Source of the DNA: an uncultured Chitinophagaceae bacterium
GTDB taxonomy: Bacteria > Bacteroidota > Bacteroidia > Chitinophagales > Chitinophagaceae
Direction: 5' to 3'
NCBI GenBank assembly: GCA_937981995.1
Contig: CALJNC010000018.1
Coordinates: 1 to 64,000, forward strand
DNA: 64,000 nucleotides
The notes below the pieces were generated by a model, which ran no database searches, was not told the DNA's origin, and was given only the letters and a program-made list of their open reading frames with translations. Position numbers and translations under genes: made by a program. Positions 4,437-49,330 of the stretch are shown in pieces; the first letter of the stretch is position 1; every line of letters begins with the position of its first letter.

Positions 4437-7283
4437 ATGCCTAAAGACAACTCCATTAAACACGTATTGATTATCGGCTCTGGACCTATTATTATTGGTC
4501 AGGCTTGTGAATTTGACTACTCAGGTACCCAGGCTTCGCGCTCCTTGCGAGAAGAAGGTGTAAAAGTGACCTTGATTAATAGTAATCCTGCCACGATTAT
4601 GACCGACCCCATGATGGCAGATAAGGTTTATCTTTTACCGCTTGAGGTAGAAAGCATCAAGCAAATTTTAGAAGAAAACGAGGATATTGATGCTGTTCTC
4701 TCTACCATGGGCGGACAAACAGCTTTGAATCTTGCCAAAGAAGTGGATGAACTTGGAATATGGGAAGAGCATAACATTCGTATGATAGGAGTGGATATGG
4801 CAGCTATTGACAAGGCGGAGGACCGTGAAAAATTCCGTCAGTGGATGTTGCAAATGGGCTTTAATGTAGCTACGGCCAAAACGGCTAACTCCTTCCTAGA
4901 AGGAAAAGAATTTGCACAAGAAATTGGTTTTCCTTTAGTTATTCGTCCTTCTTACACACTGGGTGGCTACGGTGGCGGCTTTGTAATGAGCAAAGACAAA
5001 CTAGACGATGCCCTTAAAGCTGGATTAAATGCCTCGCCTATTTCTGAGGTATTAGTAGAGCAAGCCGTTTTGGGTTGGAAAGAATATGAGCTAGAGCTTT
5101 TGCGGGATAGTGCAGATAATGTTTGCATTATTTGTACCGTAGAAAATTTAGATCCTATGGGGGTGCACACCGGTGATAGTATTACGGTAGCACCTGCTAT
5201 GACTTTGAGTGATACTTGTTTCCAAGAAATGAGAAACATCGCCATTGATATGATGCGCAAACTCGGAAATTTTGCCGGTGGATGTAATATTCAGTTTGCG
5301 GTAAATCCAGAAACGGAAGAAATCATAGTCATTGAGATTAATCCGCGGGTAAGTCGTTCTTCTGCACTGGCGAGTAAAGCGACTGGTTATCCGATTGCGA
5401 AAATTGCAGCGAAATTAGCTTTAGGTTTTCAGTTGGATGAACTAAAAAATCAAATTACAAAAACTACCTCGGCTTTCTTTGAGCCGACTTTGGATTATGT
5501 CATTGTAAAAATACCACGTTGGAATTTTGATAAATTTAAAGGCGCAAAAGACACTTTAGGTTTACAAATGAAAGCGGTAGGAGAGGTTATGGCCATTGGT
5601 CGTTCGTTTACTGAGGCGATTCAAAAAGCTTGTCAAAGTTTAGAGAATAATGCAGTGGGCTTAGGTTACTACGGTAAAAGCCTCATGAAAAGCGAAGAGC
5701 TTTTAGAGTATCTACAAAAACCAAAATGGGATCGAATCTTTCGTATTAAAGATGCCATTATGGCGGGCATTAGTTTGCGCTCTATTTCTAAAGCGAGCCA
5801 CGGTATTGATATGTGGTTCTTAGAGCAAATCAAAGTGATTTGTGAGATCGAAAAGCAAATTGCAGAATATAAGTTTGACACCATACCTGAAGATTTAATC
5901 TGGACGGCGAAGGAAAATGGATTTAGCGATGAGCAGATGGTGCGCATCATGAATCAGCGTAAGAAAGAAGATGAATTTTACGAGCGCCGTAAAGCCATGG
6001 GTATCCAACGCGTATTTAAAATGGTGGATACCTGTGCGGCTGAGTTTAAATCAGAAACACCTTACTTCTACTCTACCTACGAAAGACCTTCTGCAGGGAA
6101 TGTGTTGACGAGCAACGAAAGTATCGTTACGGATAAAAAGAAAATTATTGTACTCGGTTCTGGACCCAATCGTATTGGTCAAGGGATCGAATTTGATTAC
6201 TGCTGTGTGCACGGTTTGCACGCTATTAAAGAATGTGGTTACGAAGCCATTATGATAAACTGTAATCCCGAAACGGTGAGTACAGATTTTGATATGGCAG
6301 ATAAGCTTTACTTTGAGCCTGTATTCTGGGAGCACCTCTGGGAAATTATTGAGCACGAAAAACCCGAAGGTGTGATCGTACAACTCGGCGGACAAACGGC
6401 ATTGAAACTAGCCAAGCGTTTAACCGAGCGTGGTATAAAAATTATAGGAACTTCATTTGAAAATTTAGATTTAGCAGAAGACCGCGGTCGTTTTTCTGAT
6501 GAATTAAAAAGATTAGAAATTCCATATCCTGAATATGGCACCGCACGCGATGTAGACGAAGCCGTGAAGGTGGCGAACGAAGTGGGTTATCCTGTACTCG
6601 TGCGTCCTTCTTATGTATTGGGCGGACAGCGCATGCGTATTGTACTTAATGATGAAGAACTAGAATCCGCGGTGGTGAGTTTATTAAAACACATACCGGA
6701 TAATGTTATTTTGATTGATCACTTCTTAGATCGTTGTCAAGAAGCGGAGGTTGATGCCATTTATGATGGAGATGATATTCATATCATGGGTGTGATGGAA
6801 CATATTGAGCCAGCGGGTATTCACTCGGGTGATTCCAATGCAGTACTACCTGCTTTTAATCTCACGCCTTTAGTGGTAACTACTATGGAGCATTACGCCA
6901 AAAAAATTGCAGAGGCTTTAAATATTAAAGGACTCATCAATATTCAGTTTGCGATTAAAGATGGCAATGTATATGTAATTGAAGCCAACCCTCGTGCTTC
7001 ACGTACTACACCCTTTATTGCAAAAGCATACGGCATACCCTACTTGAATGTGGCTACTAAAGTGATGCTAGGAGAAGCGAAATTAAAAGACTACACTTTT
7101 GAGAAAAAGCTGGACGGTTTTGCGATTAAAGAACCGGTATTCTCGTTTAATAAATTCCCGAATGTAGATAAGCAACTCGGTCCTGAAATGAAAAGTACGG
7201 GTGAGGCCATTCGCTTTATTAAAGATTTGACGGATCCTTACTTTAGGAAATTGTATAAGGAGCGGTCTATGTATTTGAGTTAG
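4437..7283 (+). CDS. carB: Carbamoyl-phosphate synthase large subunit
   Basis: Two ATP-grasp halves: IIGSGPIIIGQACEFDYSGTQASRSL and VLGSGPNRIGQGIEFDYCCVH; full-length ~948 aa. Confidence 0.97.
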   Translation: MPKDNSIKHVLIIGSGPIIIGQACEFDYSGTQASRSLREEGVKVTLINSNPATIMTDPMMADKVYLLPLEVESIKQILEENEDIDAVLSTMGGQTALNLAKEVDELGIWEEHNIRMIGVDMAAIDKAEDREKFRQWMLQMGFNVATAKTANSFLEGKEFAQEIGFPLVIRPSYTLGGYGGGFVMSKDKLDDALKAGLNASPISEVLVEQAVLGWKEYELELLRDSADNVCIICTVENLDPMGVHTGDSITVAPAMTLSDTCFQEMRNIAIDMMRKLGNFAGGCNIQFAVNPETEEIIVIEINPRVSRSSALASKATGYPIAKIAAKLALGFQLDELKNQITKTTSAFFEPTLDYVIVKIPRWNFDKFKGAKDTLGLQMKAVGEVMAIGRSFTEAIQKACQSLENNAVGLGYYGKSLMKSEELLEYLQKPKWDRIFRIKDAIMAGISLRSISKASHGIDMWFLEQIKVICEIEKQIAEYKFDTIPEDLIWTAKENGFSDEQMVRIMNQRKKEDEFYERRKAMGIQRVFKMVDTCAAEFKSETPYFYSTYERPSAGNVLTSNESIVTDKKKIIVLGSGPNRIGQGIEFDYCCVHGLHAIKECGYEAIMINCNPETVSTDFDMADKLYFEPVFWEHLWEIIEHEKPEGVIVQLGGQTALKLAKRLTERGIKIIGTSFENLDLAEDRGRFSDELKRLEIPYPEYGTARDVDEAVKVANEVGYPVLVRPSYVLGGQRMRIVLNDEELESAVVSLLKHIPDNVILIDHFLDRCQEAEVDAIYDGDDIHIMGVMEHIEPAGIHSGDSNAVLPAFNLTPLVVTTMEHYAKKIAEALNIKGLINIQFAIKDGNVYVIEANPRASRTTPFIAKAYGIPYLNVATKVMLGEAKLKDYTFEKKLDGFAIKEPVFSFNKFPNVDKQLGPEMKSTGEAIRFIKDLTDPYFRKLYKERSMYLS

Positions 7284-7371: not shown

Positions 7372-7977
7372 CTAACTTTTATATTTAAACTGATTATGAA
7401 CTTCATCAAATCCATCCATCCCTCCAAATAATTCTAACACCTGAGGAGCATTTACGAAATCATCTTGTCGATTATGTTTGATAGAATTGTATGAACTTAA
7501 ATCCCATTCAGATAACTCATGAACAAAACCGTGATGTATAGGATTTTTATGAACATAAAATATAGCGGAAGTTACATCAGAACTCTTCTTTAATTCCACA
7601 CGTTTAATAGCTCTTATAAACAATCCACCTTTTCGTTTATAATATTTATTGTAAGATTTTACATAAGAGTTAAGCAGACTGCCACATGATTGCAAAGAGT
7701 TCTTATGAAAAGTTTCGGGCGTAAGTTCTTTCTTAATCTGAAACTGTTCTAAAATTTCGTTTGTCTTATTTAGTGAATTAGAACGAACAACAAAATGAAA
7801 ATGATTAGGCAGTAAACAGTAGGCGTAAATTGTAAAATAGGGTTCCCAGTATTTTTTTATTTTCTTTAGAAAGAAGTTATAATTTTCTGTACTTCGAAAT
7901 AAATCTTCATCGCCCACTGCTCTATCAAAAATATGATAGAAGGTACCAGGTTTAAAGTCATCATTGTATTTCGACAT
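7372..7977 (-). mobile_element. REP-associated tyrosine transposase (RAYT; Y1 HUH transposase family)
   Basis: GTFYHIFDRAVGDEDLFRS...YAYCLLPNHFHFVVRS (HUH motif HFH), SYVKSYNKYYKRKGGLFIRAIKRVEL, YVHKNPIHHGFV: hallmark RAYT/TnpA-REP motifs. Confidence 0.92.
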
Positions 7978-8061: not shown

Positions 8062-8064
8062 CGT

Positions 8065-8124
8065 TTGATAGATCTATACTTCCGTAAATTGTATAAAGAT
8101 CGCTCGATGTATTTGAGTAGGTAA
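8065..8124 (+). pseudogene. Duplicate/remnant of carB 3' end (LIDLYFRKLYKDRSMYLSR*)
   Basis: Aligns to carB 7227-7280 (LTDPYFRKLYKERSMYLS); by hand count ~43/54 nt identical, most differing codons synonymous. Confidence 0.85.
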
Positions 8125-9785: not shown

Positions 9786-9868
9786 TTGCGAGACCTACAA
9801 TTTAGACTTCTACTGAGAAAAAGGAAATTCTTCATAAAGTCGACGAAGACACAACTATCTTTACAGCA

Positions 9869-11647
9869 ATGAAAAGAAACTTTATTGTACTCCTTATGGT
9901 TTTTACTTTTTCCAGTGCACTTCAGGCACAAATTACTGAGCAATGGGGACCTGATGGTTTTGTAAAAATTGAAAATGGTCAGGGAGGACTTTCGGAGCCA
10001 TTAGATCCCGGCGACCGTTTTAGCAGAGATCATGATCAAGCAGGAGATATTAATGGAGATGGGGTAATAGACTTAGTAATCGGTGCGCGTTCGGATGACG
10101 ACGGAGCAACTGATGCAGGTGCTGTGTATATACTTTTTATGAATAGTATTGGCACAGTACAAAGCAGTCAAAAAATTTCTGCCTTAGCAGGAAACTTTAC
10201 CGACACATTGGCTGCAGGTGATTTTTTTGGTTATGGTGTAGCCGGTATAGGAGATTATGATGGAGATAATATTCCGGATATTGCAGCCACCGCAAGTGGT
10301 AGAATCTATATTATTCATTTAGATGCGACGGGGAAGGTAAAAAGCCTCGTAAGAAATAATGGCATTAATTCACAAGGCTTATCTGCCATTGGTGATTTAA
10401 ATAATGATGGTAGAATAGATTTAGTAGCATGTCAGCCAACTTCAAATGCCGGTGGTACAAGAAGAGGAGCAATTCAAATATTGTTCTTTAACAATAATTC
10501 GCAACTTATGAATGCGAACACCGTTACCATAAGTTCTACCCAAGGAGGTTTTGGTACGGGGCTGCAAAATGATGATAATTTTGGAGGCCGAGAAGTAGCC
10601 ATGCTCGGCGATATAGATAATGATGGCACCAAAGAATTAGCTGTTGGTGCTTTTAAATCTGATGGAGGCAAAGGCGCTATTTGGATTTTGTCCTTAAGCA
10701 ATACAAATTATAATGTAGTTTCTAAACTGAAAATAACGGAAGGTATAAATGGTTTTCATGATACGCTTACCCTAGGTGGAAATACCAACGGAACGAACGG
10801 CGCGCACTTCGGTCATGCCCTTTGTAAAGTAGGAGACTTAAATGGTGATGGCATTCCTGATTTAATGACAGGAGCCAATCAACAAAGCGAAGGTTGGGGT
10901 TATATATTATATCTCAATGCTGATAAAACCGTTAAGACCTATACCAGAATAAATAATACAGATGGTGGTTTTGGTTTGGTGTTAGATCCTTTGGAGCGTT
11001 TTTCTCGTTCTATTTCTTTTGTTGGAGACTTACGAGGCGACGGAACTATTGCGGTAAACTATGGTGGCGGAGCAGGCGGCACAGGTACTTTGTATCTATT
11101 GTTCCTAAAGCCCTGTGACTTTGATCAGCAAGCCGGTTTTAATCATTGGAGTGGTGGCAATACCTTATTCTCTAATTGGAGTCATGCCAATCAGATGCTT
11201 ACTAGTGATTCATTGACTTTTGAGCAATGCACCTTTAAAGCTTTTGAAACGGATGCGGCCTACATGACTTATAATTTTAATGATGGTAGATGCATATGTA
11301 AAGATTCAAATGCAACTTTAACGGTGAGTAGTGAAATGAGTACAGCTTATATTAATAGATGTTATAGTGCCTATGAGCCAACGAGTGCAACTAATATAAG
11401 CCTTGCCAATAAAATTTCGGTTTACCCTAATCCAGCTACTAATGAAGTTATCATAACAAGCTCCGAAACAAACTTCACGATCAACGATAAAGTTGAATTA
11501 TATTCTATGGTAGGTAAAAAGCTCATGACATCTAGAATACTTTCTAGCAAAACAAGCGTAGATATTTCAAACTTAGCGAGTGGAGCTTATCTATTAGTAA
11601 CTCATATTCAAGGAGGAAGTCAATCTGTAAAAGTTGTAAAAGACTAA
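9869..11647 (+). CDS. FG-GAP (integrin-alpha-like) repeat protein, T9SS-sorted
   Basis: Repeated GDINGDGVIDLVIGA, GDYDGDNIPDIA, GDLNNDGRIDLVA; T9SS tail ISVYPNPATNEVIITS... Confidence 0.9.
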   Translation: MKRNFIVLLMVFTFSSALQAQITEQWGPDGFVKIENGQGGLSEPLDPGDRFSRDHDQAGDINGDGVIDLVIGARSDDDGATDAGAVYILFMNSIGTVQSSQKISALAGNFTDTLAAGDFFGYGVAGIGDYDGDNIPDIAATASGRIYIIHLDATGKVKSLVRNNGINSQGLSAIGDLNNDGRIDLVACQPTSNAGGTRRGAIQILFFNNNSQLMNANTVTISSTQGGFGTGLQNDDNFGGREVAMLGDIDNDGTKELAVGAFKSDGGKGAIWILSLSNTNYNVVSKLKITEGINGFHDTLTLGGNTNGTNGAHFGHALCKVGDLNGDGIPDLMTGANQQSEGWGYILYLNADKTVKTYTRINNTDGGFGLVLDPLERFSRSISFVGDLRGDGTIAVNYGGGAGGTGTLYLLFLKPCDFDQQAGFNHWSGGNTLFSNWSHANQMLTSDSLTFEQCTFKAFETDAAYMTYNFNDGRCICKDSNATLTVSSEMSTAYINRCYSAYEPTSATNISLANKISVYPNPATNEVIITSSETNFTINDKVELYSMVGKKLMTSRILSSKTSVDISNLASGAYLLVTHIQGGSQSVKVVKD

Positions 11648-37008: not shown

Positions 37009-39576
37009 ATGAAATATCCCGTAAATGGAAGAAAAGAATTAAAACGGCTAGCCAAAAGACTATCCGTTTTAGTAGAAAAAGGGTTGGATAGAGAAAGCGT
37101 TCAGGTTCAACTTTTGATTGAAAAAATAAAATTCCTTTTTAGTAAAGCACGATTTAGTAAGCGATTTGTTCGTCGAGCTTTTGGAACAGCCTTAGTAATT
37201 TTAGGTTTGGGTTTTAGTCAACAACTAAGTGCACAAGCGAGTTTTGCCACTCCAGTTCAATTACCTTTTAATTTAGATAGTACAGATAACTTTGCATTTA
37301 CGGCAACAGCTGATTTAGATGGCGACGGCGATAATGACCTATTGGTGGGTGAGTACTACGGTAACCTCCAATACTTTCAAAATACCGGTACAAGCACAAG
37401 CCCATCTTTTGCAACAGCAGTCCAAAACCCTTTTGGTTTGACTGCAGGAAATGGAAATTGGGCTGAACCAAGCTTTGTAGATTTAGACAACGATGGCGAT
37501 TTAGATCTTCTTGTTTCAGAATCTCAATACAACTATACAACCTATGCGTATTCAGGAAACCTTTTGTATTTTGAAAACATAGGTTCAAGCATTGCACCTT
37601 CATTTGCAGCGCCAACAAACAGCCCATTTGGTTTACCAAATCTAACGAATGCGTTTGGACTTTGTGATTTTACTGATTTGGATAATGATGGAGATTATGA
37701 TTTAATGATGGTTGAGTATAATGCAACGAATTATACAGCGCAACTTAAATATTATCCAAATTTAGGTAGCTCAAGCCTCCCTAATTTTGGTCCGGCTCAG
37801 ACCAATCCTTTTGGATTAAGTTTACCTAGTAACACCGATATTGGATTTTTAGACTTTATGGATATTGATAATGATGGAGATCAAGATTTATTTTTGGGTA
37901 ATAGTAGTTCTTACAATTCTAATTTTCAATTTTATGACAATAATGGATCATCCTCAGTACCAAACTTTGCAGCGGGTGTAAGTAACCCATTTGGACTTAC
38001 TCCCTTAAATCAATTAAACCAATACTATAGTATTAATTCGTTATCCATTGTTGATATAGATGGAGATTCAGATTTAGATATTATAACTGGTACAGATTAT
38101 GGAGTGCTCGTATATTACGAAAATGTTTTTAATTCTACCGGACCGCTGGCCATTTCGAATATAGTATTGAGCAGCCCAACTTGCAACCCAGGAGGCGATG
38201 GATCTTTATGGGCATCAGCAAGTGGTGGAACACCCCCTATTGTATATAAAATTGGAACTGACTCAAATACTACTGGTAATTTTACAAATTTAGTTCCAGG
38301 TACCTATACGATACGTGTACGTGATAGTCTTAATACGATTATAGATAGCATAGTAACCATTAGTACACCAACTCCACCGATATTTGATACCAATAGTACT
38401 TTTGTTGGTAACGTTTCATGTAATGGCTTAAACGATGGTTTCGTTTTTGTAGGCGCTAATGGTAGCGCAAGCCCTTTAACCTATAATTTAATACCGGGAG
38501 GATCAAATAATAATGGTGGTTTTCAATCTGTAGGTGTAGGAAATTATCTTGTAGTAGTTACAGATCCTAACAATTGCTCCGATAGCTTAAATGTTACTGT
38601 TACTCAACCACCAGCAATTAATTTTGGAGTGGATAGCACAACCAATCTTACTTGTTTTGGCGCTACATCTGGAGCTCTTTACACAACCGCTACGGGTGGT
38701 AATGGAGGTTTTAATTATACTATTTCACCTATAGCTGGTATTCAAGCCAACCCAGGTGATTTTACAAACTTGCCTGCTGGTAGTTATACAATTACAGCAA
38801 CTGATTTAAATGGTTGTAGCTCAAGTGTAACTCAAACAATTACTCAACCACCAAATACCATTACTACGATAATTAGTAACCTCAATAATGTAAGTTGCTT
38901 TGGTGGTAATGACGGTAGCTTTATGGCTACATCAACAGGCTCTACAGGATTTAGTTATTCAGTAGTTCCATTAGTAGGTACGCAAGCGCCTTCAGGGACC
39001 TTTACAAACTTAACGGCCAACAATTATACTGTTACCGCAACCGATGCTATTGGATGTACAAATTCAAGTGTTGTGAATATTACACAACCTATTGCATTAA
39101 CATTGTCTATTACCAATGTGCAAGGTGCTAGCACAGGAATGAACGACGGCTCTATTACCGCACTTGCCGCAGGAGGCACGCCTGCTGTTACCTACAGTAT
39201 TTTGCCTAATGTGGGTACACAATTCCCCGCAGGAACATTTACAGGATTAGGTTTAGGTAATTACACAATTACTGCAACTGATGCAAATAATTGTACTACT
39301 ACAATTATGAGTACTGTTGGTTTTGTAACTGAATTAAGGGATCTTGAGAAACATAATATCAAAGTATATCCTAATCCAGTTGTTGATTTATTAAAACTAG
39401 AAAGTGATGTAGAAATTTCTGCATTATCCATTTTAGATATTACTGGGAAAGTAATAGAAACAATTGACAAGCCTGCTGAAAGTATTTCAATGAGAAACTT
39501 ACCTGAAGGTATTTATATTTTGAAACTTAGTTTAAAAAACGAAGGGACCGTTTATACCCGGATTACCAAACAGTAA
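37009..39576 (+). CDS. VCBS/FG-GAP + SprB-repeat protein, T9SS-sorted, with long cationic pre-signal extension
   Basis: DLDGDGDNDLLVGE repeats; SprB-type CNGLNDGFVFVGANG...; T9SS tail IKVYPNPVVDLLKLESD...TRITKQ. Confidence 0.9.
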   Translation: MKYPVNGRKELKRLAKRLSVLVEKGLDRESVQVQLLIEKIKFLFSKARFSKRFVRRAFGTALVILGLGFSQQLSAQASFATPVQLPFNLDSTDNFAFTATADLDGDGDNDLLVGEYYGNLQYFQNTGTSTSPSFATAVQNPFGLTAGNGNWAEPSFVDLDNDGDLDLLVSESQYNYTTYAYSGNLLYFENIGSSIAPSFAAPTNSPFGLPNLTNAFGLCDFTDLDNDGDYDLMMVEYNATNYTAQLKYYPNLGSSSLPNFGPAQTNPFGLSLPSNTDIGFLDFMDIDNDGDQDLFLGNSSSYNSNFQFYDNNGSSSVPNFAAGVSNPFGLTPLNQLNQYYSINSLSIVDIDGDSDLDIITGTDYGVLVYYENVFNSTGPLAISNIVLSSPTCNPGGDGSLWASASGGTPPIVYKIGTDSNTTGNFTNLVPGTYTIRVRDSLNTIIDSIVTISTPTPPIFDTNSTFVGNVSCNGLNDGFVFVGANGSASPLTYNLIPGGSNNNGGFQSVGVGNYLVVVTDPNNCSDSLNVTVTQPPAINFGVDSTTNLTCFGATSGALYTTATGGNGGFNYTISPIAGIQANPGDFTNLPAGSYTITATDLNGCSSSVTQTITQPPNTITTIISNLNNVSCFGGNDGSFMATSTGSTGFSYSVVPLVGTQAPSGTFTNLTANNYTVTATDAIGCTNSSVVNITQPIALTLSITNVQGASTGMNDGSITALAAGGTPAVTYSILPNVGTQFPAGTFTGLGLGNYTITATDANNCTTTIMSTVGFVTELRDLEKHNIKVYPNPVVDLLKLESDVEISALSILDITGKVIETIDKPAESISMRNLPEGIYILKLSLKNEGTVYTRITKQ

Positions 39577-39596
39577 AATTGTTCTTTAAAATTAGG

Positions 39597-39628
39597 AAGC
39601 GACCAGAATTATCTGGTCGTTTTTTTAC
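39597..39628 (+). terminator. Rho-independent terminator
   Basis: GCGACCAGAattaTCTGGTCGTTTTTTT. Confidence 0.8.
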
Positions 39629-39652
39629 AAAAAAAATTGTACCTTCAATAAT

Positions 39653-41971
39653 ATGAGGTATCCTCCAAAACGTTCGAAAGAGCTAAAACGCTTAGCGAAA
39701 AAATTATTTACTCTCCTTGAAAAAGGTTTAGACAGTAGAACAATTAAACTTAAAATAATCTTAGAAAGAATACAAAGTATCATTGCAAACACAAGGTTTA
39801 AAAAAAGATTTATTAAAAGAGCTCTTGGACCATCGTTACTAATTTTAAACCTTTGTTTCTCTCAAAATGTAAGAGCCCAAGCAGCGTTCACCGCTCCTGT
39901 AAGTAATCCATTTGGGCTAACGAATACAACTAATGCTAATGTAGTGTCTCACGTTGCTAGTGATATGGATAATGATGGTGATTTAGATATTTTAGTTTTA
40001 GAAGAATGGGGAAACTTTAAATATTATGAAAATATTGGTACTCCAACAGTGCCTTCTTATACAACACCTGTAACTAACCCTTTCGGTTTACAAATTTCGT
40101 TTAACAATTGGCCTTCGCTAACAATAGTTGATATTGATGGAGATGGCGATTTAGATATATTCTCATCGTCCGAGGATTTGTCTTACTTTGTACCAGAAAT
40201 TAAATACTACGAGAATATTGGTTCGGCTACTGTACCAAATTTTACAACTGCTGTTCTTAATCCCTTTGGTTTAAATCCAGCCACTTTAGCGGATTTACAA
40301 ACAGCTGATATTGATAATGATGGAGATTATGACTTCTTTAGCGTGGTGGGGAACGGTGGAAATGCACCAACAATAAGATATCAAGAAAATATTGGAACGG
40401 CTGTTTCTCCTAATTTTGGAATAGGTCAGAACAATCCTTTTGGCCTGACAGTGCCTGTTCCCTTTTGGGCCACTGGTGGTTTTATAAGCATTAAAGATTT
40501 AGACAGCGATGGTGATTTAGACCTATTATATGGACATGCCCTTTATAGTGGCAATTTTGGCTATCAGCAAAATTTAGGCACAGCGACTGTACCAAATTTT
40601 GCAGCCTCATTGCAAAATCCGTTTGGATTAATTGAAGTGAACGCAAATAATCCATTTAATAAAACCAATAATCCAGAACTAGTAGATTTTGACAACGATG
40701 GCGATTTAGATATTATCACTAGTGTATATCAAGGAGACATGGTTTATTTTGAAAATGTATTTTCGAATACAGGTCCTCTTAGCATATTTAATATTTCATT
40801 ATACTCTCCATCTTGCACTACAAATAATGGCACTGTTTTAGCAGTAGCTGGTGGTGGCGCTCCTCCAATTACTTATAAAATTGGAACAGATTCCAATACA
40901 ACTGGAGTGTTTACAAACTATGGTGCAGGAACTTACAACTTAAGAATTCGTGATAGTATGAATGTAATAATTGATTCAATTATAACTATCTCACCGCCTT
41001 CACAACCAATATGGGATTCGTTGAATAGCACAATAAATAATGTAAGTTGCAATGGCCAGAACAATGGGTTTCTCCATCTTTCCGCACTTGGCGGAACACT
41101 ACCTTATACTTTTCAATTACTTCCAGGTTTTGCAAACCCGCAAATAGGCAGTATGTATAACGGCTTAGGTCCAAACTCCTATTTAATAATTATAACAGAC
41201 GCCAATAATTGCATAGATAGCGCAAATGTTACTATTACTGAACCGCCTGCAATTAATTTTAGCATTGACAGCTCCAAGTCATCTTGTTTTGGTCTTACCA
41301 ATGGCTCAATATATACATCTACAACAGGTGGAAATGGAGGCTTCATTTATTCTATAATACCCGCCGCTGGAACCACCAATACTGGTTCTGGTGATTACCT
41401 TAATTTGCCGGCTAACAGTTATACAATCACAGCTACTGATTCAAATGGCTGCACATCTAGTGTAATGCAAACAATTACTCAAAACCCTCAAGTAAATATT
41501 TCGATTTCAAATACGCAAGGTGCAAGTTCAGGAATGAATGATGGATCAATCACTTCATTAGCTTCAGGTGGAACGCCTACTTATACTTACAGTATTGCAC
41601 CAAATATGGGTGTACAAACACCTCAAGGAACATTTACAGGTCTAGGTGTTGGCAATTATACTATTACAGCAACGGATGCAAATAATTGCACAACTACAAC
41701 TATGAGTACTGTTGGTTTTGTAACTGAAGTAAAGGATCTTGAGAAACATAATATCAAAGTATATCCTAACCCAGTAGTTGATTTATTAAAACTAGAAAGT
41801 GATATTGAAATTACTTCATTGACTGTTTTAGATATTACTGGAAAAATTGTAAAAACTATTGACAAACCTTCTGAAAGTATTTCAATGATAAACTTACCTG
41901 ATGGTATTTATATCTTGAAACTTACAATGAAAAACGAAGAGACGGTTTATACTCGTATTACGAAACAGTAA
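39653..41971 (+). CDS. Tandem paralog: VCBS/FG-GAP + SprB-repeat protein, T9SS-sorted
   Basis: Same architecture, same N-terminal extension, nearly identical T9SS tail as 37009..39576. Confidence 0.9.
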   Translation: MRYPPKRSKELKRLAKKLFTLLEKGLDSRTIKLKIILERIQSIIANTRFKKRFIKRALGPSLLILNLCFSQNVRAQAAFTAPVSNPFGLTNTTNANVVSHVASDMDNDGDLDILVLEEWGNFKYYENIGTPTVPSYTTPVTNPFGLQISFNNWPSLTIVDIDGDGDLDIFSSSEDLSYFVPEIKYYENIGSATVPNFTTAVLNPFGLNPATLADLQTADIDNDGDYDFFSVVGNGGNAPTIRYQENIGTAVSPNFGIGQNNPFGLTVPVPFWATGGFISIKDLDSDGDLDLLYGHALYSGNFGYQQNLGTATVPNFAASLQNPFGLIEVNANNPFNKTNNPELVDFDNDGDLDIITSVYQGDMVYFENVFSNTGPLSIFNISLYSPSCTTNNGTVLAVAGGGAPPITYKIGTDSNTTGVFTNYGAGTYNLRIRDSMNVIIDSIITISPPSQPIWDSLNSTINNVSCNGQNNGFLHLSALGGTLPYTFQLLPGFANPQIGSMYNGLGPNSYLIIITDANNCIDSANVTITEPPAINFSIDSSKSSCFGLTNGSIYTSTTGGNGGFIYSIIPAAGTTNTGSGDYLNLPANSYTITATDSNGCTSSVMQTITQNPQVNISISNTQGASSGMNDGSITSLASGGTPTYTYSIAPNMGVQTPQGTFTGLGVGNYTITATDANNCTTTTMSTVGFVTEVKDLEKHNIKVYPNPVVDLLKLESDIEITSLTVLDITGKIVKTIDKPSESISMINLPDGIYILKLTMKNEETVYTRITKQ

Positions 41972-45272: not shown

Positions 45273-45794
45273 TTGCCACTTTTTTTAAGTAATTTCACTA
45301 TTGATATGAAATACACTATTCTATTCCTTTTGTTTCCGGTATTCTTTTCTTGCAAATCAAAAAAATGTTTGGTAAAAAATGCAACACCTACAAAAGATAC
45401 GATTTACCTAGAGAATCCAAAAACGGGTGAAATGACAATGAAAATAGTTGAAAAAGTTGCCAATCCAGATGGTGATTGGAAACTTGTGAATGTGAGTAAT
45501 CAACATTCCGATGAAATGGAAAGACTTACATTATCAATAAATTCAAAGAAAAATGAATTCAATGGATATGATGGCTGTAATACATACTTTGGAAGCTTAG
45601 GTGGCAAAACGGGTACGGCAATTGGATTTAATGACCTTTCTAAAACTGAACGCGCTTGCATGGTTCCTGCTAAATATGCTAGTATCTTTTACAAACAATT
45701 GGAAATAGCAACTAGCTATGAAGCTTCAGGAAATTTTTTAATCTTGAAAGATGAAGATGGCAAAATGCTCCTACGATTTGAAAAGAAAGAGTAA
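45273..45794 (+). CDS. META-domain lipoprotein
   Basis: Start likely MKYTILFLLFPVFFSC (lipobox); YDGCNTYFGSLGGKTGTAIGFNDLSKTERAC. Confidence 0.8.
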   Translation: MPLFLSNFTIDMKYTILFLLFPVFFSCKSKKCLVKNATPTKDTIYLENPKTGEMTMKIVEKVANPDGDWKLVNVSNQHSDEMERLTLSINSKKNEFNGYDGCNTYFGSLGGKTGTAIGFNDLSKTERACMVPAKYASIFYKQLEIATSYEASGNFLILKDEDGKMLLRFEKKE

Positions 45795-45833
45795 ACAATT
45801 TGGGTTTGTCATTATCAAATGACCAAATTGGCT

Positions 45834-45898
45834 AATTATCAAATCAAAGATTTAACTTAGCCAAATGGCTGATAAAAAACTCTATCTCCTTGATGCAT
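45834..45898 (+). repeat. Direct repeat copy 1: duplicate of polA upstream region and first codons
   Basis: 65 bp matching 46492-46556 at 60/65 positions, incl. exact 46-nt TAACTTAGCCAAATGGCTGATAAAAAACTCTATCTCCTTGATGCAT. Confidence 0.95.
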
Positions 45899-46465
45899 AT
45901 ACTTAAACTTTTCTTTATATCTTTTATTTGTTTATTGCCCATTCAACTAGGTGCTCAAATAACAAACGATCAAGTTGAATTTAAAATATTGGGAAGAGAT
46001 ACCATCTATGTTGAAGATGCAATTACAGGTAAGTTGGAAAGTGAAATAGTACTTGAAAAAGGTGGGATCATTAATTTCAAAGGAGAAAAAGTATATAAAA
46101 TGACAGAGGTTAATAAACCTGCATATTTACATAATACACACTCTTCGATTCATGAAATATTAGAAAAGTATTTTAAAAATTCTTGGAGTACCTATCCTAA
46201 AAAGAAATATGAAATAATTATAAAGGATTTATTAATCTCATCATATGGACAGGTTGAACATTATAATTGTTTCATATCAAAACAAGAGCCATTTCATTAT
46301 AAAGACCATGGTGGAGGCAATTGGAATAGAAAACTTATTTCTAAAACCAAAACTGAAATAAAGGAAATATTGCTGGCTAATAAGTGGAAAGCAGCTAGAG
46401 ATAAAGCAAAAGCTGTGCATGCATACTTTGATAATCCTATCAAAATAGTAATTGAGATAAAATAA
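45893..46465 (+). CDS. Secreted hypothetical protein inserted between polA 5' duplicates
   Basis: ATG at 45893: MHILKLFFISFICLLPIQLGAQ signal peptide; the ATG lies inside the duplicated polA segment, out of polA frame. Confidence 0.7.
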   Translation: MHILKLFFISFICLLPIQLGAQITNDQVEFKILGRDTIYVEDAITGKLESEIVLEKGGIINFKGEKVYKMTEVNKPAYLHNTHSSIHEILEKYFKNSWSTYPKKKYEIIIKDLLISSYGQVEHYNCFISKQEPFHYKDHGGGNWNRKLISKTKTEIKEILLANKWKAARDKAKAVHAYFDNPIKIVIEIK

Positions 46466-46491
46466 TAAATCATCAAATCATCAAATCTTCC

Positions 46492-46556
46492 AATTATCAA
46501 ATCAATACCATAACTTAGCCAAATGGCTGATAAAAAACTCTATCTCCTTGATGCAT
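46492..46556 (+). repeat. Direct repeat copy 2: native polA 5' region
   Basis: See 45834-45898. Confidence 0.95.
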
Positions 46557-49330
46557 TTGCATTGATTTTTCGTGCATACTATGCCTTAATACGTAATCCT
46601 AGGGTAACCTCTACAGGTAAAAATACAAGTACTCAATTTGGTTTTGTAAATACATTAGTTCATTTACTCAAAACCCAAAATGCAACCCACATTGCTGTAT
46701 GCTTTGATACACCCGAAGTTGGTGTGCGCAATGAAACTTTTCCGGAGTATAAAGCAAATAGAGAGGAAGCGCCCGAGGATTTAAAACTAGCTATACCAGA
46801 CATTAAAAGATTAATTAAAGCTTTTAATATACCAATCATAGAAGCACCAGGCTATGAAGCTGATGATATTATAGGCACGCTTAGTAAAAAGGGTTCTGAT
46901 GCCGGTTATGAAGTGTATATGGTAACTTCTGATAAAGATTTAGGCCAGCTGGTAAACGATAAAGTTTTTATGTATAAGCCACCGAGCCGAGGGGGTAAGT
47001 ACGAAAAAATGGGCGAAAAAGAAGTTTGCGAAAAATGGGATATCCAAAACGTAAGCCAAGTAATTGATATGATTGCGCTCATGGGCGATGCGGTAGATAA
47101 CATTCCCGGAATAAAAGGGGTAGGTGCAAAAACTGCTGCTAAACTTTTAAAAGAATACGGCACCGTAGAAAATGTATTAGATAATGCTGAGAATATCAAA
47201 GGAAAGATGGGTGAAAAAGTAGCAGCTGGTCGTGAAGATGCTATGATAAGTAAAGAGCTTGGTACTATAATAATGGATGTGCCTTGTGAGTTTAACGAAG
47301 AAGATTATAAAATATCAGACTGGAACCGCGAGGAGCTCATTGAAATTTTTTCAGAACTAGAATTTAGAACCTTAGGACAACGCGTATTAGGTGAAGAATT
47401 TAAAGTAAAACCAAAAGAAGGTGAGCAAACTGATTTATTTGGTAATGCAGCTCCAACAAAAAGTAATAGCTCAATTACAGAAAGTGCTGAAGAAGAAATT
47501 CCTACAACTTTTAAAACTATAGAAACTGAGAAACATGATTACAAATTTGTAAACAAGGAGGCAGATATTAAAAAACTCATTGAAGAGTTAAGCACGTACA
47601 AAGAAGTTTGTTTTGACACAGAAACCTCAGGAGTTGATCCATTGCAATGTTCCTTAGTTGGTATGAGTTTTTCAGTTAAAAAAGGAAAAGCTTTTTACAT
47701 CCCTTGTCCTGCAGATGAAAAAGAATGTAAAAAATTCCTTGAGCAGTTTGCTACTCTTTTTGAGAACAAGGATATTACTTGGATAGGACAAAACTTAAAG
47801 TTTGACTATCTGGTACTTAAAAACCATGGTTATGATTTAGCCGGCAATGTGTTTGACACCATGCTGGCGCATTATGTAATTGAGCCAGAAGGCAAAAGAA
47901 GCATGGATGTATTGAGCGAGCAATTTTTACAATACTCCCCTGTGTCAATTGAAACACTGATAGGAAAAAAAGGGAAGAATCAAAAATCAATGGCTGACTT
48001 ACCACAAGAAGAAATTAGTGACTATGCAGCAGAAGATGCTGATATAACCTTGCAATTAAAAAAGAAACTGTTTCCATTATTAAAAAAGAAAGAAGTAGAA
48101 AAAGTATTTTATGAAGTAGAAAACCCACTCCTTAAGGTACTGGCTGATATGGAATTTGAAGGAATTCGTGTAGATGAAAAATTCTTGAATGAGTATAGTG
48201 TAACACTAGGTGCAGAAGCAAAACAAGCAGAAGAAAATGTTTACGAACAAGCCGGTGTGCGATTTAATCTAGCATCTCCTAAGCAATTAGGTGAAGTACT
48301 TTTTGATAAATTAAAATTGGATGAAAAAGCCAAGAAAACAAAAACAGGTCAATACAAAACTGGTGAAGACATATTAAAAAAACTAGCCGCTAAACATAAA
48401 ATTGTTGATGAGATTCTTACGTTTAGACAGCTTACCAAACTAAAAAATACCTACGTTGATACTTTGCCAAGTATGATACATCCTAAAACAGGAAGAGTAC
48501 ATACTAATTATGCGCAGGCGGTTGCCGCCACAGGCAGATTGGCTAGTAACAATCCTAACTTACAAAATATTCCAATCCGCACTGAAAAAGGACGTGAAAT
48601 AAGAAAAGCTTTTATCCCACGTGATGAAAATCATGTCTTGGTAAGTGCCGATTATTCTCAAGTAGAGCTACGAATTGTGGCGGCAATTAGTGGCGATAAA
48701 AATATGTGCGCTGCTTTTAAAGAAGGTATAGATATTCATACAGCTACTGCAGCAAAAGTATTTGACGTGAAACCAGAAGATGTTACTAAAGAGCAACGCT
48801 ATAAAGCCAAGAGTGTAAACTTTGGTATCATTTATGGGCAAGGTGCTTTTGGCTTGGCTGATAATTTAGGCATTAGCCGCACTGAGGCAAAAGAGATCAT
48901 TGATAATTATAAAAAAGAATTTGTAGGTATTACAAAGTACATGAGCGACATGGTAGAGTTTGCTCAGGAAAATGGATACGTACAAACGCTTATGGGTCGT
49001 AAACGATGGCTCAAGGATATTAACTCAGGCAATTTTACAGTACGTGGCTTTGCTGAGCGTAATGCAATTAACTCTCCTATACAAGGTACTGCAGCTGATA
49101 TGATTAAGTTAGCCATGATTCAAGTGCAGGAAAAACTGCCGAAGGACAAGTACAAAAGTAAAATGCTATTACAAGTACATGATGAATTAATTTTTGATGT
49201 ATATAAAGATGAACTAGATGAAATGAAAGATATTATTCTTTCAACTATGGAGAGCGCCATGCCTTTGCCAAATGATGTTCCTCTTGTAGCTGAGATGGGC
49301 GTTGGTGATAATTGGCTGGAGGCGCATTAA
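46523..49330 (+). CDS. polA: DNA polymerase I
   Basis: 5'-3' exonuclease N-term (AFALIFRAYYAL, YEADDIIGTL), 3'-5' exo CFDTETSGVDP, polymerase VSADYSQVELRIVAAISGD, QVHDELIFDV. Confidence 0.98.
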   Translation: MADKKLYLLDAFALIFRAYYALIRNPRVTSTGKNTSTQFGFVNTLVHLLKTQNATHIAVCFDTPEVGVRNETFPEYKANREEAPEDLKLAIPDIKRLIKAFNIPIIEAPGYEADDIIGTLSKKGSDAGYEVYMVTSDKDLGQLVNDKVFMYKPPSRGGKYEKMGEKEVCEKWDIQNVSQVIDMIALMGDAVDNIPGIKGVGAKTAAKLLKEYGTVENVLDNAENIKGKMGEKVAAGREDAMISKELGTIIMDVPCEFNEEDYKISDWNREELIEIFSELEFRTLGQRVLGEEFKVKPKEGEQTDLFGNAAPTKSNSSITESAEEEIPTTFKTIETEKHDYKFVNKEADIKKLIEELSTYKEVCFDTETSGVDPLQCSLVGMSFSVKKGKAFYIPCPADEKECKKFLEQFATLFENKDITWIGQNLKFDYLVLKNHGYDLAGNVFDTMLAHYVIEPEGKRSMDVLSEQFLQYSPVSIETLIGKKGKNQKSMADLPQEEISDYAAEDADITLQLKKKLFPLLKKKEVEKVFYEVENPLLKVLADMEFEGIRVDEKFLNEYSVTLGAEAKQAEENVYEQAGVRFNLASPKQLGEVLFDKLKLDEKAKKTKTGQYKTGEDILKKLAAKHKIVDEILTFRQLTKLKNTYVDTLPSMIHPKTGRVHTNYAQAVAATGRLASNNPNLQNIPIRTEKGREIRKAFIPRDENHVLVSADYSQVELRIVAAISGDKNMCAAFKEGIDIHTATAAKVFDVKPEDVTKEQRYKAKSVNFGIIYGQGAFGLADNLGISRTEAKEIIDNYKKEFVGITKYMSDMVEFAQENGYVQTLMGRKRWLKDINSGNFTVRGFAERNAINSPIQGTAADMIKLAMIQVQEKLPKDKYKSKMLLQVHDELIFDVYKDELDEMKDIILSTMESAMPLPNDVPLVAEMGVGDNWLEAH

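Follow-up and report, generated by a model that had tools for sequence, protein, structure and literature searches.

How a gene for a secreted protein came to lie directly in front of polA, between two copies of the polA 5′ end, and to take its start codon from one of them, is the question raised by a 64,000-nt stretch of DNA from a Chitinophagaceae metagenome-assembled genome (contig CALJNC010000018.1, positions 1–64,000, hereafter the window). The comparisons reported here indicate that the arrangement is real and derived. It is best read as promoter capture by duplication, expression of the fused gene being a prediction from sequence.

A direct repeat of the polA 5′ end

A preliminary description of the locus had reported two 65-nt blocks, 45834–45898 and 46492–46556, matching at 60 of 65 positions and sharing an exact core of 46 nt. 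These coordinates and counts proved correct, and the repeat was found to extend leftwards, to 45811 and 46469. Over the full 88 nt (45811–45898 versus 46469–46556, at a constant offset of 658) the copies are 86% identical (E 5e-23). The exact core (45853–45898 and 46511–46556) has the −7 promoter box of polA at its start, includes the start codon and runs on through codon 11. All 12 mismatches fall within the first 42 of the 88 nt and none within the core (P = 5e-5 if mismatches were evenly spread). An exact repeat of 46 nt at such a spacing cannot have arisen by chance. It is one of the few nearby direct repeats that the window has, paralogous genes aside. No further full copy was present in the genome as a whole (2.73 Mb, 82 contigs), which gave only short leader-like matches, and a scan of a further 304 kb of it revealed no second instance of a duplicated gene start fused to a gene.

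All features of the locus lie on the forward strand. Copy 1 (45811–45898) carries the duplicated polA leader and codons 1–11, and copy 2 (46469–46556), delimited by the repeat comparison, is polA's own leader with the same codons. As first described, polA itself is unharmed and keeps its own leader: its reading frame, 46523–49330, is intact by comparison with relatives and encodes 935 aa. The polA frame of copy 1 terminates early, as had also been noted, and reads MADKKLYLLDAYT* at 45865–45906, a putative leader peptide. The claim that the secreted-protein gene takes its start codon from duplicated polA DNA was borne out as well. The gene (45893–46465, 190 aa, with a signal peptide) begins at an out-of-frame ATG, 45893, inside copy 1, and an alternative start, TTG at 45890, is likewise within the repeat. 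Copy 1 is joined to the secreted-protein gene at about 45898/45899, and the truncated polA frame overlaps the start of the secreted-protein frame by 14 nt.

It is very improbable that the repeat is an artefact of metagenome assembly. The genome is a draft, but the joint lies inside a long contig, the two copies differ at 12 positions, and the leader of copy 1 has a unique exact match of 23 nt upstream of polA in a sister species (G001); these differences and this unique match make a misassembly unlikely.

Two other repeats were noticed. A non-coding direct repeat of 117 bp, 91% identical, was located at 9854–9968 and 11985–12100 of L158 (G000:C5), 2.1 kb apart. In the window, two adjoining large genes for secreted proteins (37477–41971) have C-terminal regions that are 79% alike over 569 nt, probably owing to a tandem duplication.

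Promoter geometry and the predicted leaderless start

The regions upstream of polA were compared in L044–L123 and the window. A TAnnTTnG box was present just upstream of the polA start in 61 of 76 Chitinophagaceae loci, and the gap from box to ATG was exactly 4 nt in 55 of the 76 (box at −12 to −5); the expectation from shuffled sequences is 2.5% per locus. Published sigma-A boxes of flavobacteria occupy −12 to −5 relative to the start of transcription (PMC9723704). Together, the polA boxes and this spacing predict that transcription starts at the A of the ATG, and polA mRNA is predicted to be leaderless across Chitinophagaceae. Both copies in the window retain the geometry of the 55 loci, with the −7 box TAACTTAG placed 4 nt before the ATG, at 45853–45860 in copy 1 and at 46511–46518 for polA itself.

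Preservation of the box in copy 1 agrees with the earlier expectation that the secreted-protein gene should inherit the polA promoter. RNA polymerase at copy 1 would initiate precisely on the polA ATG, yielding a leaderless mRNA. Since copy 1 keeps the box geometry, this mRNA should begin with AUG and a 13-codon peptide, followed by the secreted-protein frame, which begins 28 nt into the predicted transcript and overlaps the end of the peptide. Ribosomes reading MADKKLYLLDAYT would terminate 11 nt beyond the secreted-protein start codon, and the secreted-protein gene might then be translated by coupling, to which the layout of overlapping frames appears suited. polA would retain its own promoter.

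Two genomes of the same genus, G001 and G002, were available for comparison. Codons 1–12 of polA (36 nt) are identical in the window (46523–46558) and in G001 (L034, 7192–7227; P 5e-4), and the leaders differ. Over the whole gene the two proteins are 80% identical and the codons of conserved residues 53% identical, synonymous sites outside the first 12 codons being nearly randomised. No other pair of the family showed an excess of identity in the first 12 codons. A constraint at the DNA level on polA codons 2–12 across the family was rejected, as pooled codon identity was 43% there versus 44% in the rest; the perfect identity between the window genome and G001 is therefore peculiar to this genus.

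Degenerate short-word repeats occur before the promoter, upstream of polA, in L050, L057, L110, L034 and the window, and in L101 between nearby genes. The words are different in each genome (for example ATCAAATC, AGTATCC, TCTTACGG, ACGTTAAA and GTTAGTTATTAG).

The gene between the copies and its relatives

The secreted-protein gene is a homologue of the C-terminal module of M56/BlaR1-type proteins. It had no match in Pfam or NCBIfam, and prediction of its structure from the single sequence was uninformative (pLDDT 35); a family profile built without it matched it at E 2e-22. A search of 299 family genomes revealed weak relatives in six other genomes; most of those that are complete are M56/BlaR1-type membrane proteins, and it is their C-terminal module that the gene matches. 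Clear members of the family are rare (about 6 of 71 relatives searched), and searches of phages and plasmids gave no match. At L149 (4717–9881), five genes in a tandem run, of the same family, encode M56/BlaR1-type proteins and, as separate secreted proteins, relatives of the C-terminal module.

The order of genes in G002 is GNAT, DoxX-like, 183-aa secreted protein, polA. The 183-aa gene is a homologue of the secreted-protein gene and matches the same M56/BlaR1-type proteins; it is on the same strand, at a similar spacing from polA, and a GNAT gene lies beyond, as in the window. In both the window genome and G002, then, the clear family member adjoins polA on its upstream side and has the same orientation. 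The order in G001 is TspO, META lipoprotein, 166-aa lipoprotein, polA; the slot before polA holds different genes, and no member of the family was found in this genome. Both genomes have one polA 5′ end each. No second polA start was seen in G001, in G002, or in the roughly 76 other loci of the family whose upstream sequence was long enough; comparison of relatives at polA had been proposed in the preliminary description, and by it the second copy is absent from about 77 other family loci, including the two same-genus genomes.

Since a homologue of so rare a family lies directly upstream of polA in G002, the secreted-protein gene is probably an old resident neighbour, the extra piece being the copy of the polA 5′ end. 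A conserved neighbourhood is the simplest explanation, so the novelty in the window would be the polA 5′ copy before the gene. A unit of about 658 bp had originally been proposed to be inserted or duplicated. The repeat, with its offset of 658, stands; the insertion of a foreign unit is not supported in the form proposed, given the homologue upstream of polA in G002, but the other genes in this slot of G001, and the unrelated genes between polA 5′ copies in a second family, leave insertion a fair probability.

Duplication at a probable resident neighbour versus insertion

With moderate confidence, we explain the locus by promoter capture through local duplication, in which a copy of the polA 5′ end became fused to the resident secreted-protein gene upstream of it. 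The gene is joined to a duplicate of the polA promoter and the donor polA is intact; a homologue lies directly upstream of polA in G002, though not in G001. In E. coli, tandem duplications have been documented to bring about promoter capture (PMC11111574). The simplest event would be a tandem duplication of about 658 bp, comprising the neighbour gene and the polA 5′ end. The order of features and the joint would then be just as observed, and the first copy of the neighbour should have ended at about 45807. With its native start lost at the joint, the downstream copy of the neighbour would now begin out of frame, at an ATG within polA codons 10/11. The other neighbour copy, upstream, would later have been replaced by, or have diverged into, a META-domain gene.

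Such a gene, encoding a META-domain lipoprotein (45306–45794; Pfam META, 1.7e-15), is found upstream of copy 1. Its position fits the first tandem unit, with an end at 45794 where about 45807 is expected, and it matches the family profile of the secreted-protein gene at E 9e-4. The N-terminal 31 or so residues (DTIYLENPKTGEMTMKIVEK) resemble that family in a short match, and among 3,381 ORFs it is the only one outside the family to have the full DTIY...TG motif (KDTIYLENPKTGEMTMKIVEK). The META gene is no more than suggestive as a trace of the first neighbour copy. Evidence against promoter capture is the lack of DNA similarity between the META gene and the secreted-protein gene outside the leader, the lack of a family member in G001, and the low GC content of the secreted-protein gene (28%, versus 35% for the window).

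The last two observations speak for a different event, the insertion of foreign DNA bringing the secreted-protein gene with a polA leader and polA 5′ end from a relative. It could have proceeded by homology on one side and an illegitimate joint on the other, or by way of a long target duplication; in either case the gene would end up with polA 5′ copies on both sides. The copies differ in their leaders and are identical in their coding part, as would be donor and recipient alleles, and G001 polA has the identical 36 nt with a different leader. In addition, polA 5′ copies in two genomes of a second family (G060 and G351) are separated by unrelated genes, and the site is uninterrupted in G039 and G352. 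However, a homologue of the gene already resides upstream of polA in G002, and no donor with such an arrangement was found in 299 family genomes, phages or plasmids. We consider insertion possible but less likely than promoter capture.

The leaders give an indication of age, which is a further point against promoter capture. A 23-nt stretch of the copy-1 leader, TCAAATCAAAGATTTAACTTAGC (45839–45861), occurs just once in the window genome, and G001 also has it once, 1.37 kb before polA; a pattern search allowing up to 3 mismatches did not reveal it elsewhere in the three genomes of the genus. The leaders adjoining polA also correspond between the window species and G001, so the two leaders may predate the split of the species, which suggests that duplication of the leader is older than that split. 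An older leader duplication with a mismatch-free core calls for gene conversion, constraint, or two polA alleles joined by recombination. An interspersed leader repeat, which would be a trivial cause, was also considered and dismissed, since neither the window genome nor G001 has the copy-1 23-mer more than once.

Recurrence in a second family of the order

Duplicates of the polA 5′ end were present in only 3 of about 350 genomes examined. G060 and G351, of a second family of the order, each have three copies when polA itself is counted. Relative to its own polA, G060 has copies of 151 nt at 95% and 56 nt at 93% identity, and G351 has 69 nt at 98.6% plus an outer remnant. The inner segment between copies, 0.9 kb long, is common to both genomes (94%), and the outer segments hold unrelated lipoprotein genes (160 aa and 130 aa). 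In G039 and G352, of the same genus, only a short gap separates polA from a divergent esterase gene; a clean empty site was seen in this second family only. These examples fit insertion better than tandem duplication. The inner copy of G351 agrees with its own polA almost throughout, and the orthologous copy of G060 follows G060 polA at the single informative site. As the inner copies track their own polA, their sequences point to homogenisation of the polA copies in G351 and G060. Beyond these two genomes, no further case was found among the matches listed in a 299-genome sample of the order at the protein level, nor any more duplicates among those listed in a class-wide pattern search, both being blind to fragments under about 20 aa.

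Recurrence at the polA 5′ end in two families, with the outer slot occupied by one gene in G060 and by a different one in G351, could be taken as the mark of a mobile element or site-specific cassette system using this end as its attachment site. However, no integrase or transposase lies near the repeat and no integrase was seen between polA copies, hairpins are absent at the joints (z 1.1 and −1.2), and so few of the genomes examined carry duplicates. Moreover, the joints are not uniform between lineages: in the window the joint follows codon 11, G351 has it further on, and in the outer copy of G060 it is at about codon 38. This variation argues against a site-specific recombinase. We regard a cassette system as quite unlikely. 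Integration specifically at codon 11, where the middle copy of G060 ends, was rejected, given that the orthologous copy of G351 is longer and the outer copy of G060 extends to codon 38 or so.

A broader proposal, which we find doubtful at present, is that the polA 5′ end is a reused fusion site in Chitinophagales: polA would serve as donor of a portable leaderless module of promoter and start codon, copied again and again ahead of genes for secreted or membrane proteins, with recombination keeping the copies alike and the intervening genes exchangeable. The predicted leaderless start of polA suggests a compact, portable expression module, and the independent second-family examples, with empty sites and differing genes in one slot, make this idea testable by comparison.

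Relation to known systems

Promoter capture by spontaneous tandem duplication has been described for Salmonella his, for the E. coli citrate transporter and by Li and Bock, as covered in a review (PMC11111574). There, as at polA, a silent or weak gene is joined to the promoter of a neighbour at the duplication joint, and the donor promoter is kept. Unlike these captures, the polA case is natural and probably old; the copied piece is a predicted leaderless promoter with 11 codons, inside which the captured gene starts out of frame. It is a natural and readable example of how a gene can acquire both promoter and start codon from a neighbouring essential housekeeping gene, here polA, without visible harm to the latter. 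The kind of event, promoter capture by duplication, is known; its recurrence at polA is the interesting part.

Insertions with long target duplication in Helicobacter pylori (Nobusato et al. 2000, as cited in PMC1643837) share with this locus a gene between long direct host repeats and the absence of a transposase. To judge from that citation, they frequently involve restriction-modification genes, whereas the gene between the polA repeats appears to be a resident neighbour. Homology-facilitated illegitimate recombination (PMC3240628) would give one homologous and one illegitimate joint, with a partial copy of the anchor gene; in contrast to it, the polA case has no known donor.

Duplicated host segments at carB and thrA

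The preliminary description had likened the polA repeat to a duplicated carB tail in the window. This parallel failed. The repeat at carB (7226–7280 and 8064–8118, in which the final 55 nt of the gene recur at 80% identity) encloses a REP-associated tyrosine transposase (7372–7977, reverse strand; NCBIfam NF047646, E 6e-14, below the curated cut-off), and the element is flanked by strong hairpins. A transposase of the same kind, scoring above the cut-off, is located at the 5′ end of thrA (aspartokinase-homoserine dehydrogenase; L046, 12925–14110), between copies of a 228-bp host segment that are 92% identical, and thrA is intact.

Since copies of the carB 3′ end and of the thrA 5′ end flank such transposases, the polA repeat might be the remains of a decayed insertion of this type. 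We judge this highly improbable, as the protein encoded in the polA segment is intact and belongs to another family, and the segment contains neither REP-like hairpins nor a transposase remnant; the earlier statement that no transposase is present near the repeat was confirmed, no transposase homology being found in the segment. The carB and thrA cases belong with the REP-associated tyrosine transposase elements (PMC6006769), and their resemblance to polA is superficial: polA has no transposase or hairpin. carB and thrA are a different class of event from polA.

Target duplication is not a known outcome of IS200/IS605-type transposition, which makes the long host duplication at carB odd. At 30 further loci with such transposases, most flanking repeats were the hairpins themselves.
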